Source: Candidatus Eiseniibacteriota bacterium (lineage in GTDB: Bacteria > Arandabacterota > Arandabacteria > JAGLYR01). From it: DNA of 8,654 bases. Below the pieces are notes generated by a model. That model was not told where the DNA came from and ran no database searches. It was given only the letters and a program-made list of their open reading frames with translations. The DNA lies in the NCBI GenBank assembly GCA_023132135.1, contig JAGLYR010000167.1, positions 1 to 8,654 on the forward strand. The letters run 5' to 3'. Numbering within the stretch: position 1 is the stretch's first letter; each line of letters opens with the position of its first letter. A program made the translations under genes and the position numbers. Shown here in pieces: positions 3,309 to 7,953 of the stretch.

Positions 3309-3812
3309 TCAGACTCTCACACTCTGTTTCGGGCTGGGCTTCCCGCATTGCACGGCTTTTCCGATCGCCCTCACCATCACCAACGCATCTTCATCGTTGT
3401 CCGTGTAGTACCCGTGCGAAACGGTCACGGTCCGGAAGCCCACCTTGCGAAATAGATTAATAGCCACTCTGTTCGAAACCCGTGTCTCAAGAGACACCCT
3501 TGAGCAGTCCCTCTTCAAAGCCTCCTCAAAAACTCTCCGGATCAGAAGGGTTCCTAGTCCCCGCCTCTGGTACCTCTCGTCAACGGCGATGTTCGCCACA
3601 TGGAATCTGCGGCCCACCCGCCACAGGATGGCGTAGGCCACCAATCGTCCTTCCAGATGCATCACCAGCGGAACGCTGTCCGCCGAGGCGGCGATCTCCT
3701 TCAGGAACATCTCGCAGGTCCAAGCCATCGCGAACGCCCGCCGCTCGATGTCTACAACACCGGGCACGTCCCCCGCCTGCATCCTCCGGATCTCCATGCC
3801 CTCCAATCTCAT
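3309..3812 (-). CDS. rimI: GNAT-family N-acetyltransferase RimI
   Basis: In E. coli RimI acetylates the N-terminal alanine of ribosomal protein S18; homologues encoded beside tsaB are common and their substrates are often unproven. The 167-residue product is a single GNAT domain: substrate-side helix with W31, beta strand HVANIAVDERY (71-81), acetyl-CoA pyrophosphate loop QRRGLG (82-87), then LETRVSN (108-114), AINLFRKVGF (117-126) and Y136, matching the Glu and Tyr positions used for catalysis in RimI. After DALVMVRAI (142-150) there is a 17-residue basic tail (KAVQCGKPSPKQ...) that looks non-conserved. The ATG overlaps the tsaB stop (ATGA), so the two are probably translationally coupled. 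M6 has a GGAGG too close to it to be the better start. Confidence 0.9.
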   Translation of the reverse strand: MRLEGMEIRRMQAGDVPGVVDIERRAFAMAWTCEMFLKEIAASADSVPLVMHLEGRLVAYAILWRVGRRFHVANIAVDERYQRRGLGTLLIRRVFEEALKRDCSRVSLETRVSNRVAINLFRKVGFRTVTVSHGYYTDNDEDALVMVRAIGKAVQCGKPSPKQSVRV

Positions 3813-4510
3813 CGTCGACCCTTTTCCTCCGCATCGCTGGGTCTCACATACAGGGGTTCCAGGCTCACGGGATCGTCCACCAGTCCATCAAGCAGCCGTG
3901 CGGCCCCCAACCGCGCTACCGTCCCCGGCTTCGCCTCGGATCTCGCCGACGAGATCACCTTCACCCCACGTCCGGAGAGAGCGTTCACAAGCTCATCCAG
4001 AGGACAGGTCTCGTCGCCGACCACACAAAGCCCCTCCCCATTCGACGGTAGAGTTTCCAGGACGGCAACCACCGCGTCCTCGACAGCCCCCAGCACGGTC
4101 GGCAAGCACTCCGAGAGCCGCCCCTCCACCCCCTGGTAGAGAGCATAGAACACATCCCCTCGACGGGCATCGGAAACCGACAGGACCCACTCTCCCTGCA
4201 GCAGACCTGCGGCACGAACTTCGAGCGTGGGAACTCCCGCCAGATTCAGCCCCACGGCATACGCAAGCCCCTTGCCCAGACCGAGTCCCGCTCGGAGCCC
4301 CGTAAACGATCCGGGACCGAGCGAAACACAAACTCCCCCGATGGTCCGCAGGTCCATTCCCAAGTTCTTCAGAAGCCCATCCAGGGTCGGAAGCAGACGT
4401 TCCGTGTGAGCGCCCCGGAGATCAACGCACGACTCTCCCAGAAGCCGGCCGTCCCCTACGACCGCCACCCCCCCGCGCCACCCGGAACTCTCGATTCCCA
4501 ACACGTTCAC
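3809..4510 (-). CDS. tsaB: tRNA t6A37 biosynthesis protein TsaB
   Basis: Catalytically inactive ASKHA-fold platform subunit that binds TsaD and TsaE when the threonylcarbamoyl group is placed on A37 of ANN-decoding tRNAs. The 233-residue product shows the family pattern: N-terminal strand NVLGIESS (2-9), GAHTERLLP (33-41), the signature GPGSFTGLRAGLGLGKG (65-81), DARRGDVFYALY (114-125) and a C-terminal LEPLYVRPSDAEEK (217-230). Length is as expected. The start is GTG, placed by the strand-1 motif and by GGGAG eight bases upstream. A copy of the window's repeat ends one base upstream of that site, so a hairpin there could affect initiation. It overlaps rimI by four bases and follows tsaE after 38. 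TsaD and TsaC must be encoded elsewhere. Confidence 0.94.
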   Translation of the reverse strand: MNVLGIESSGWRGGVAVVGDGRLLGESCVDLRGAHTERLLPTLDGLLKNLGMDLRTIGGVCVSLGPGSFTGLRAGLGLGKGLAYAVGLNLAGVPTLEVRAAGLLQGEWVLSVSDARRGDVFYALYQGVEGRLSECLPTVLGAVEDAVVAVLETLPSNGEGLCVVGDETCPLDELVNALSGRGVKVISSARSEAKPGTVARLGAARLLDGLVDDPVSLEPLYVRPSDAEEKGRR

Positions 4511-4548: not shown

Positions 4549-5028
4549 TCACTGGTTAGCCCAACCTTCCGTGAACCGGCTCAGCAAGTCCTTGCCGCGG
4601 GCGCCGCCAGGGCGAAAGATCAACCGCCGCGATTGGCGACCCGTTATCTCAATGCTGATGTCCAGACGATCCTCAGGAAGGACTCCTGCGATTTTCTCAC
4701 TCCACTCAATCAGAGCGACTCCCGAACCAAAGATCATCTCATCGTACCCGTCGGTGCGAAGATCCGTCACTCTCCCGACCCGGTACAAATCAATGTGAAA
4801 GACCCGCAGCCGCCCACGGTACTCATTCACAGTCAGGAACGAAGGCGATGTTACCCGGTCTTCGACGCCAAGCCCCCTGCAGATCCCGCGGGCGAGACAG
4901 GTCTTCCCACTGCCCAGGTCACCAGACAGTCCAACAACATCCCCCCCCTGCAGATTCAGCGCCAGCGCTGCTCCCAATTGTTCCGTTTCCTCGGGTGAGG
5001 AAGTCTCCGCGCACCAGCGATTTTCCAT
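4549..5028 (-). CDS. tsaE: tRNA t6A37 biosynthesis ATPase TsaE
   Basis: P-loop ATPase that binds the TsaB-TsaD complex and drives the catalytic cycle of tRNA t6A37 formation. Positions here count from the GTG at 5031. Seen are Walker A GDLGSGKT (37-44), the switch-like VTSPSFLTVNEY (60-71), HIDLYRV (79-85), the Walker-B-like strand VALIEW (105-110) followed by SEK, and RLDISIE (122-128), all diagnostic of TsaE. Length (159-160 residues) is normal. The start is ATG at 5026-5028, sharing its A with the porX stop (TGATG); the GTG directly before it is an equally open choice. No strong ribosome-binding site is visible, consistent with translation coupled to porX. The C-terminus (RFTEGWANQ) ends just before the repeat in the tsaB gap. 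Confidence 0.94.
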   Translation of the reverse strand: MENRWCAETSSPEETEQLGAALALNLQGGDVVGLSGDLGSGKTCLARGICRGLGVEDRVTSPSFLTVNEYRGRLRVFHIDLYRVGRVTDLRTDGYDEMIFGSGVALIEWSEKIAGVLPEDRLDISIEITGRQSRRLIFRPGGARGKDLLSRFTEGWANQ

Positions 5029-6593
5029 CACTTTGCTGTGAGCACCGTGCAGGGAACGATCATCTCCTCCAGCGAAATGCCGCCGTGCTGGAAGCTGCCC
5101 TTGTACTGTCTCTCGTACTCGTGGTACTTGGTCGGGTAGACAAAGTAGAAATCCTCCTCAGCCAGAATGTAGTTCTTGTTCAGGCTGTCCGAGGGCAGGC
5201 CAAAGACCTCGGGATTCCTGACCACCAGTGCATGCCGGGTATCGCAGTTCAGGTTGTTGCCGAACTTGTACCGGAGATTTGTGGACGTCTGCCGATCCCC
5301 GTAGGCAACGGTCGCACGCGTTCCCAGCACCGATCCGTGGTCGGTGGTTATCACCACTGTGATCCCCTGCACCGCCAGCAGCTTCAGAGTATCAAAAAGA
5401 GACGAGTGGGCAAACCAGGATTTCGTCAAACTTCGGAAAGCCGATTCGTCCGGTGCAATCTCCTGGAGCAGCTCGGATTCGGACCGCCCGTGAGCCAGCA
5501 TATCCATGAAATTGAACACGAGGGAAACCAGACGCTGGGACGCGTACCCTCTGGCCAGCCTCCGGACATTGTTGGCTTCCTCAACGTTGTAGATCTTCAC
5601 ATACTTCGGCTGCGGAGAGAGGTTGATCCCCAACTGCTCCAGCTGCTTGTCCATCAGCTGCCGCTCGTGCCTATTCTTGCTCCGCTCGTCCCCGGTGACT
5701 TCCTGCCAGTACTTCGGGAACTTCTTGTGAATCTGGATCGGCAACAGTCCCGCAAAGATGGCATTGCGGGCATACGGTGTAGCCGTTGGCAGTATGGCGT
5801 AGTAGTTGTGTCTCTCCATCGCGAAGTACGGCTCCAGAAGAGGCTCGATGGTCAGCCACTGATCCACCCGCATGCAATCCAGGATGATGAAACAGACGGA
5901 CGGGCTCCGCTCCAGTTCCGGGACCAGAAACCGGGAGACCACGTTGGTGGACAGCACGGGCCCCTCTTCCCCGGCTATCCAGCCCGGGTAGTTCTTCTCA
6001 ATGAACTTGGCAAACTCCACATTGGACTCCCGCCGTTGGTCGTTGTGGGTCTGCCGCAGGCCCTCTTCGGGGAACTGATCGATCAGCACATCCCACTCGG
6101 AGAGATTCGTGTGGATCTGGATCCAGTCCTGCCAGGTGGGGCGGTCGGACCGCATCATCGCGTTCTTCCGGAAATCCTCCACATAGTCGCGGGTCAGCTG
6201 GAGCGACTGAATGGAATGCCGGTCGAGAAGGCGCCGACACGCGGAGAGAACCTGAACCGGATTCACCGGCTTGATCAGGAAATCGTCCATGCGCCTGCCG
6301 ATGGCTTCGTCCACCAGGGATTCTTCTTCACTCTTGGTGATCATGATCACCGGCAGATTCGGACGGTTTTCCTTGATTGCCTCCAGCGTCTCGAGACCGC
6401 TCATTCCGGGCATGAACTCGTCCAGGAGAACCAGATCAAACCGCCCGTCCCGGATCATTCCCACTGCATCCTCCCCATTTCCCACCGGTGTAACCTGGTA
6501 GCCCCGCTCGTTGAGAAACAGGATGTGTGCGCGGAGAAGCTCAATCTCGTCGTCAACCCACAGGATCTTGTGCTGCTTTGTCTTCTCCGTCAT
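5028..6593 (-). CDS. porX: PorX-like response regulator with PglZ phosphatase domain
   Basis: Cytoplasmic response regulator; in Porphyromonas gingivalis PorX controls type IX secretion genes with PorY and SigP, and its PglZ domain is a zinc-dependent phosphodiesterase. Counting from the chosen ATG (521 residues), the receiver domain (about 9-130) has ILWVDDE (D14, D15), phospho-acceptor D58 in LLDEFMPGM, switch T86 and K108 in LIKP. D58 matches the number of the PorX acceptor. A helical linker (about 130-210) leads to the PglZ/alkaline-phosphatase fold, with apparent metal-site residues D239 (ILDCMR), T270 (LPTATPYARNAI), D364 and H368 (MDMLAH), D417-H418 (TTDHGS) and H503 (FQHGG). None is missing. 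The ATG is preceded by CGAGG seven bases upstream; a TTG at 6629 would add 12 unconserved residues. It follows a kinase gene and overlaps tsaE. No DNA-binding domain is visible. Confidence 0.94.
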   Translation of the reverse strand: MTEKTKQHKILWVDDEIELLRAHILFLNERGYQVTPVGNGEDAVGMIRDGRFDLVLLDEFMPGMSGLETLEAIKENRPNLPVIMITKSEEESLVDEAIGRRMDDFLIKPVNPVQVLSACRRLLDRHSIQSLQLTRDYVEDFRKNAMMRSDRPTWQDWIQIHTNLSEWDVLIDQFPEEGLRQTHNDQRRESNVEFAKFIEKNYPGWIAGEEGPVLSTNVVSRFLVPELERSPSVCFIILDCMRVDQWLTIEPLLEPYFAMERHNYYAILPTATPYARNAIFAGLLPIQIHKKFPKYWQEVTGDERSKNRHERQLMDKQLEQLGINLSPQPKYVKIYNVEEANNVRRLARGYASQRLVSLVFNFMDMLAHGRSESELLQEIAPDESAFRSLTKSWFAHSSLFDTLKLLAVQGITVVITTDHGSVLGTRATVAYGDRQTSTNLRYKFGNNLNCDTRHALVVRNPEVFGLPSDSLNKNYILAEEDFYFVYPTKYHEYERQYKGSFQHGGISLEEMIVPCTVLTAK

Positions 6594-6600
6594 CAGCAGA

Positions 6601-6605
6601 CCTCG
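6601..6605 (-). promoter_or_regulatory. Ribosome-binding site of porX
   Basis: CGAGG on the minus strand, seven bases before the ATG at 6591-6593. It favours this start over the upstream in-frame TTG at 6627-6629. The remaining 6606-6666 shows no clear promoter or terminator, consistent with co-transcription with the kinase gene. Confidence 0.65.
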
Positions 6606-6666
6606 ATGTGTTGGAAATCCGAAAAGCAAGCCGCAGATTGCGCGTCATGTTTCTGATGGATTGAGG

Positions 6667-7953
6667 TCAGCCCACCGGTAGAACAATGCGGAACACGGTT
6701 CCCTTGCCCGGTTGGGAGCTCTTCAGAATCAGCTTGCCGCCGTGGTAGTCTTCCACAATGCGCCGGGCCAGAGGCAGCCCCAGTCCCCAGCCCCGTTTCT
6801 TGCTGGAGTATCCCGGCGTGAACGCCTTGTCCCTCTCCGCCGCGTTCATGCCCCTGCCGTTGTCCTTCATCTCAATCTCAACACACGGATCATCCGGCCG
6901 GTACCACGACCGGATCTCGATCCAGCCGTCGGATCTGTCAATGGCTTCCACCGCGTTCTTCAGCAGGTTCTCCACAACCCACTCCAGCAGCTCGGCATTC
7001 CCGCTGATGCAGGGACTGTCCCCGTGATCCTCAACGATCCCGATCTCCTGGCCGAGACGTGGCAGTCGCCGCCTGAAATACTCCACCACGTTGTGCACCA
7101 CTGTCCCAACGTGAACGGGCCGAACCCTGGGACTGGTACCGACGCTCTCAAATCGGGACGATATTTTGCCCAACCTGGCCACATCCTTGTTCATCTCCAC
7201 CACGATGGCCTGGGGAGATGTTTCGCTGGTGTCGCTCGTCGGTCCCAGCCGGTCCTTCAGAATCTCGAGCCAACCCATCAGCGAGGAAATGGGAGTCCCC
7301 AGCTGGTGGGCCGTCTCCCTTGCCATGCCGACCCAGATGGATTTCTGTTCCCCCGCCTTGACCGACCGGTATCCCAGATACCCAAGGAAAACAAACACAC
7401 CGACGATGAATACCTGAACAATGGGCAGGTACTTCAACTGCCTGATGGTGGCCGACTCTCCGTAGTGCACCATCCCGAGAACACGGTTGCTCCCCGGCAG
7501 CACCATTGGAACGGGCGCACGGCGGGCATCCATTCTCTGGACGATGGCCAGGATCTCGGTGGCCGGACCCGGGGGCGGGTTTTGCGGATCGAGCTCCCGG
7601 AAAACCTGGTAGGGAATGGCATAGGGATTGATCCCGATCTTCTTCCAGGCCAGGGGAACGCCCCGGTCATCGGTGATGACCAGCGGGAAATCGATTCTCC
7701 GGATCACAGTGTCCAGGATCGCGTGCAGGTTGCGGTCGTCCATGGCCGGGAAGGTCGTGGTAGCGCAGAACTGGGCGAAGACGCGGGAGAGCAAGTCCGC
7801 CTGGTCCTCCAGTTTCCGGACCAGGTTGTGAGTGTACAGCAGGAAGAGGATGACCAACCCGGCGCTGCCCAGGAACATGTAACTCCTGAGGAACGTGGCG
7901 GATGTCGGGCCTCTCCGGCCGCGAAGCCTCCCGCTGAACCTCCCTCCATCCAT
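6667..7953 (-). CDS. Membrane sensor histidine kinase, PorY-like
   Basis: Two-component sensor, most likely the partner of the PorX-like regulator encoded 73 bases downstream. The 428-residue product has a basic N-terminus, a membrane segment at about 25-43, an extracytoplasmic region of about 130 residues (46-174) with no fold I recognise, and a second membrane segment at about 176-195. No HAMP domain is visible: the dimerisation helix begins almost at once (AGEQKSIWVGMARETAHQLGTP), with phospho-acceptor H216. The ATPase domain has N box ENLLKNAVEAID (328-339), G1 DNGRGM (364-369), an F box region around AFTPGYSSKK and G2 GWGLGLPLARR (388-398). The H box has Gln after the His, not the usual Glu, as I recall for PorY-type kinases. 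The ATG has a strong AGGAGG seven bases upstream. The signal sensed is unknown. Confidence 0.9.
   Translation of the reverse strand: MDGGRFSGRLRGRRGPTSATFLRSYMFLGSAGLVILFLLYTHNLVRKLEDQADLLSRVFAQFCATTTFPAMDDRNLHAILDTVIRRIDFPLVITDDRGVPLAWKKIGINPYAIPYQVFRELDPQNPPPGPATEILAIVQRMDARRAPVPMVLPGSNRVLGMVHYGESATIRQLKYLPIVQVFIVGVFVFLGYLGYRSVKAGEQKSIWVGMARETAHQLGTPISSLMGWLEILKDRLGPTSDTSETSPQAIVVEMNKDVARLGKISSRFESVGTSPRVRPVHVGTVVHNVVEYFRRRLPRLGQEIGIVEDHGDSPCISGNAELLEWVVENLLKNAVEAIDRSDGWIEIRSWYRPDDPCVEIEMKDNGRGMNAAERDKAFTPGYSSKKRGWGLGLPLARRIVEDYHGGKLILKSSQPGKGTVFRIVLPVG

Follow-up and report, generated by a model that had tools for sequence, protein, structure and literature searches.

A PorY-like sensor kinase gene directly upstream of porX in Candidatus Eiseniibacteriota and other deep-branching FCB phyla

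Introduction

Are PorY and PorX encoded as a linked pair in some bacteria and, if so, is linkage their original arrangement? The question is raised by a stretch of DNA of 8,654 nucleotides from Candidatus Eiseniibacteriota bacterium (contig JAGLYR010000167.1; this whole stretch is referred to as the window), in which the gene of a sensor histidine kinase adjoins that of a PorX-like regulator. In Porphyromonas gingivalis, porX and porY are separate (PMC4800418, PMC10951265), yet PorY phosphorylates PorX in vitro, and it is from this species only that the phosphotransfer is known (PMC4800418). Both have been described as orphan genes and their pairing, which derives from the in vitro work in one species, has been questioned (PMC11320123).

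Results

Organization of the locus

The kinase gene and porX are adjacent on the minus strand with the kinase upstream (Table 1), and the coordinates and the 73-base gap given in the initial annotation proved exact on an ORF check. PorX starts with an ATG at 6593 and its open reading frame ends at 5028. Along the minus strand, the gene order is Mut7-C domain gene, kinase, PorX, tsaE, tsaB, rimI, purine nucleoside phosphorylase, accD and folC. A search for terminator- and promoter-like sites found none inside the 73-base spacer; such sites occur at chance level.

Table 1. Features of the kinase–porX locus in the window
Feature	Position	Strand	Remarks
PorY-family sensor histidine kinase (family assignment very probable), 428 aa	6667..7953	-	TM1, short extracytoplasmic domain, TM2, no HAMP, HisKA, HATPase_c
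H216 phospho-acceptor, H-box HQLGTP	7306..7308	-	invariant in 62 family members
Kinase extracytoplasmic sensor region, ~residues 45-178	7420..7821	-	predicted fold weakly PAS/Cache-like
Kinase HATPase_c catalytic domain	6673..6999	-	
Kinase–porX spacer, 73 bases	6594..6666	-	
PorX, 521 aa, receiver + PglZ alkaline-phosphatase-type domain	5028..6593	-	NF052313, 659 bits; solved relatives 8ted, 7pv7
PorX receiver domain	6240..6566	-	PF00072
PorX phospho-acceptor D58	6420..6422	-	invariant in 94 PorX
PglZ domain; T272 catalytic; D239, D364, H368, D418, H419 metal-ligand residues	5328..5897	-	
tsaE, directly 3' of porX	4549..5031	-	kept as neighbour across the FCB group
tsaB	3809..4510	-	
rimI	3309..3812	-	

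The regulator

The regulator matches the NCBIfam PorX equivalog model NF052313 over its full length (model positions 2-513) with 659.3 bits (E=4e-198), the curated cut-off being 300. It combines a receiver carrying the acceptor aspartate with a PglZ domain whose metal-binding and catalytic residues are intact, H503 being located downstream of the PglZ span. The PorX architecture with acceptor D58, initially read from the letters alone, is borne out by this score and by the invariance of D58, T272, D239, D364, H368, D418, H419 and H503 across 94 PorX sequences.

The protein could be aligned at full length with the solved PorX structures of Flavobacterium johnsoniae (PDB 8ted, 8p6f) and P. gingivalis, showing 40% identity to both. 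P. gingivalis PorX (PGN_1019) has the same D58 and active site. The catalytic threonine and zinc-ligand residues of F. johnsoniae PorX, which has zinc-dependent phosphodiesterase activity (PMC11320123), are aligned and conserved; by spacing, T272, D364 and H368 match T271, D360 and H364, the residues mutated in the F. johnsoniae protein. A BREX PglZ identity (NF033449) was rejected at 98.9 bits, under the cut-off of 250. The PglZ domain is common to BREX PglZ and PorX, but the window contains no BREX genes.

The kinase and its family

HATPase_c is present in the kinase, HisKA is matched just under the Pfam cut-off and there is no HAMP, as the initial annotation had it for this HQLGTP kinase. 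None of the 12 relatives in which HAMP was sought has one, and its absence is therefore a family trait. H216, N333, the D and G boxes and the ATP-binding glycines are invariant among 62 family members. The predicted fold of the extracytoplasmic domain bears a weak likeness to PAS/Cache domains (best Foldseek E=0.01, WalK).

The sensor part varies in size within the family. Linked kinases of 607-629 aa (L038:3848-5734, L040:4101-5924, L041:4103-5923) have an enlarged extracytoplasmic region with apparent repeated sensor units. Calditrichota and LCP-89 genomes (L215/G019, L216/G020) encode a shortened member (ORF of 229-261 aa), apparently without the membrane sensor part.

The genome of the window contains 21 kinase matches at E<=1e-15, among which the porX-adjacent kinase is the sole family member (profile score 3.8e-177, next kinase 3.3e-34). 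A profile built from the linked kinases, with family matches counted at E<=1e-35, picked out a single strong match in 41 out of 43 PorX genomes, linked or not, bar two extra partial or weaker matches. Best hits across PorX genomes ranged from 1e-56 to 1e-177 and other kinases were much weaker; in three Chlorobiales genomes the best match was 2.2e-28. One Bacteroidia genome, G460, has PorX but yielded no family member in the same profile search. When 23 other kinases were included in a tree, the family came out as a single clade (SH-aLRT 100) that includes the window kinase and all Bacteroidia members. Distances among PorX and among kinases correlate over 53 genomes (r=0.83), a value to which shared ancestry contributes.

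Recurrence of the arrangement across phyla

All eight genomes of the window's phylum have PorX. The order kinase, porX, tsaE is present in seven out of seven checkable genomes, with the kinase full or nearly full; in the eighth, the contig begins inside the kinase gene, the end of which is visible. Among named genomes, 80 PorX loci were scanned, representing the best 80 of more than 580 matches, so that phylum counts describe a sample, mostly of metagenome-assembled genomes (MAGs). The kinase is directly upstream of porX in 11 of these loci, in one case with a small gene in between, is not so in 65, and could not be judged in four (11/76 linked). Latescibacterota account for three linked loci, Zixibacteria for two, a Gemmatimonadota MAG and a MAG titled Ignavibacterium for one each, and unnamed bacteria for four. 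Among the 76 checkable named loci, none from Bacteroidota or Ignavibacteriota was linked, nor were those of most other groups. The pair of kinase and PglZ regulator, when searched across the FCB group, thus recurs in its own phylum and at 11 loci elsewhere. Kinases of any other type were not encountered in the slot upstream of porX. Since the order recurs and the sole family member out of 21 kinase matches sits beside porX, the adjacency is not due to chance.

Irrespective of the kinase, tsaE lies just 3' of porX in 62 of 79 judgeable named loci, FCB-wide, and is often followed by tsaB, rimI, accD and folC (loci L032-L111). In a Pedobacter genome, porX (G045:C1:229479-231014) and the kinase gene (244823-245941) are separated by about 14 kb of the same contig. 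In contrast to the window, a Flavobacterium MAG related to F. johnsoniae has porX and the kinase gene separate. The MAG titled Ignavibacterium sp. (L061) groups with Zixibacteria-like lineages in a joined tree, and its title may be wrong.

Ancestral or derived linkage

Joined PorX and kinase trees were rooted on other kinases. Several linked lineages are basal in these trees, while nearly all unlinked lineages fall into one clade or neighbouring branches; in one joined tree the Rhodothermales row, likewise unlinked, was not counted with the unlinked group. Support for linked lineages lying outside all unlinked ones is moderate (SH-aLRT 89-97 in one tree, 88-90 and 92-94 in the other). Linkage state requires two to three changes on the joined trees versus 11-14.5 with shuffled labels.

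The alternative is that linkage is derived, i.e. that a single relocation of porY to the side of porX took place within a clade of deep-branching FCB phyla, the separation seen in Bacteroidota being older. Unlinked loci are indeed the majority of those sampled (65/76), and a constrained topology with the linked rows plus the unlinked Eisenbacteria row as one clade passes the AU test (p=0.32, lnL difference 2.1). Against it stand the two free trees, which at moderate support leave several of the linked lineages outside the unlinked ones altogether, and we regard such a single later origin as rather unlikely. The phylogenies thus favour linkage as the ancestral state. The ancestral system suggested in the initial annotation is upheld to this extent, with the qualification that the AU test is also compatible with one later origin.

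Relationship of the linked kinase to PorY

P. gingivalis PorY (PGN_2001) has 395 aa, transmembrane segments at 14-36 and 149-173, and the phospho-acceptor H193 (PMC5005315). In its two transmembrane segments, the lack of HAMP and the H-box spacing it matches the linked-kinase family. The same topology (~395 aa, two transmembrane segments, no HAMP, histidine ~20 residues after TM2) is found in the family member of G565, a Bacteroidales genome (386 aa, segments at 8-36 and 142-172, H186), and in the window kinase H216 likewise follows TM2. The PorX of G565 shares 66% identity with P. gingivalis PorX; the best PorX identity was 70% in searches of the Bacteroidota phylum, one order other than Bacteroidales and the class of Pedobacter. 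Judging by PorX identity and group, G565 and other PorX-rich genomes are presumably Bacteroidales.

In view of the NCBIfam model NF052314 (T9SS_HK_PorY, cut-off 350 bits), length and topology by themselves were considered an unsafe basis for identification, and the reading of G565 and published primer sequences were used. This model scores Bacteroidales family members at only 52.6 and 53.9 bits and does not appear among the best-scoring families of the window kinase. The published P. gingivalis porY primers (PMC8050853) translate to FFERSR (residues 9-14), (W)AQATK and ALLAE (171-175). The pattern WA[EAD]A[TQ][KR] occurs at the matching place in six Bacteroidia family members and in none of 23 other kinases, its background rate being about one per 985,000 residues. 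Two Bacteroidia members carry ALL exactly 22 residues ahead of the histidine, as from 171 to 193 in PorY. In the kinase tree, the window kinase falls inside, not outside, the clade that holds the kinases of P. gingivalis' relatives, PorY itself being placed by peptide fragments only.

These data bear on a second alternative, according to which P. gingivalis PorY is another protein, belonging to the NF052314 family, and the linked kinase is a separate PorX kinase that is widespread and single-copy. Its attraction is that the linked-kinase family goes unrecognised by NF052314, whose number adjoins that of the PorX model, and that PorX may have other kinases, as deletion of porX but not of porY abolishes secretion (PMC11320123); with two kinases acting on PorX, the latter phenotype would be accounted for. 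However, the primer peptides, length, transmembrane positions and H193 spacing all fit the linked-kinase family. Moreover, in the part of G565 that was read (2.34 of ~2.52 Mb, 93%) no kinase attains the NF052314 cut-off, the closest seen being a PhoR with 101 bits, and the family member is the only classical kinase neither beside nor fused to a regulator; in P. gingivalis only one classical kinase is an orphan (PMC5706477). No NF052314 members were found among other Bacteroidia kinases. We consider this alternative improbable. P. gingivalis PorY very probably belongs to the linked-kinase family, as judged from clade, peptides and topology, and NF052314 is probably a model of a different kinase or of a narrow subset. 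The term 'PorY-like' used at the outset holds on these three grounds, the reservation being that the PorY model leaves the kinase unmatched. In G565, NF052314 ranks the PhoR above the family member (54 bits).

Type IX secretion genes in PorX genomes

The genome of the window encodes SprA/Sov (G000:C275:11825-16105, ORF of 1982 aa; 482 bits against a cut-off of 200). SprA (TIGR04189) is above cut-off in 41 of 41 PorX genomes tested, this one included, and is absent in a Chlorobiales genome without PorX. C-terminal sorting domains (TIGR04183) gave 118 matches at E<=0.001 in the window's genome and none in the Chlorobiales genome. They are located on contigs C94, C53, C220 and others.

No match to the GldL/GldM (PorL/PorM) motor was obtained in the window's genome or phylum with profiles that would miss a very divergent motor. 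GldL and GldM were above cut-off only in three Bacteroidia controls; the remaining non-Bacteroidia PorX genomes that were tested likewise had SprA but no GldM match (38 in all). While the Flavobacterium lineage has the GldLM motor, the window's genome is without a recognisable one. For P. gingivalis PorX, binding to PorL and SigP has been reported. One Bacteroidetes group was reported to have Sov, PorX and PorY in the absence of PorK/L/M/N (PMC7323717), and type IX secretion genes have been suspected in other FCB phyla (PMC11285876). The lineage had at first been supposed to be perhaps without classical type IX secretion. SprA and the 118 sorting domains speak against this, whereas the motor is indeed not recognisable.

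Discussion

The kinase and PorX of the window probably constitute a PorY–PorX two-component system, which would be transcribed as one unit heading the tsaE-tsaB-rimI row. According to our model, the inner-membrane kinase would sense an extracytoplasmic cue via its short PAS/Cache-like domain and autophosphorylate on H216. The phosphate would pass to D58 of PorX, and phosphorylated PorX would dimerise and act via its zinc-dependent PglZ phosphodiesterase, possibly also via a protein partner. The target would be an SprA/CTD-type secretion pathway lacking a recognisable GldL/GldM motor. Because the active site is fully conserved across the FCB sample, enzymatic output is suggested as the shared function of PorX in this group. 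That kinase and porX are mere neighbours in a housekeeping row, porX adjoining tsaE in most genomes and hence standing in a conserved row anyway, is highly improbable, since in many phyla the slot is taken by the same single family member, one among the 21 kinase matches that the window's genome contains, and since P. gingivalis PorY phosphorylates PorX despite the unlinked genes (PMC4800418).

The two-component system itself is known; its linked arrangement is undescribed and occurs outside Bacteroidota, here in a lineage with no recognisable GldL/GldM motor. No description of linked PorX and PorY was found in the literature searched, most subscription journals being outside its reach. Recurrent adjacency in several phyla, together with the presence of a single matching kinase in almost all PorX genomes, constitutes independent genomic evidence for the pairing, and intact linked pairs are offered for biochemistry.

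As SprA and sorting domains co-occur with PorX where GldL/GldM are not recognised, the oldest role of PorX is suggested to be independent of the rotary motor that P. gingivalis PorX reportedly binds. Tentatively, a wider history can be drawn, about which we are ourselves somewhat doubtful: an FCB-wide PorY–PorX system may have arisen as one operon, split toward Bacteroidota, and originally run motor-less SprA/CTD secretion via the PglZ phosphodiesterase rather than via PorL binding. The recurrent adjacency in deep-branching phyla is also evidence that the PorY–PorX pair may be older than the secretion motor to which it is usually tied.
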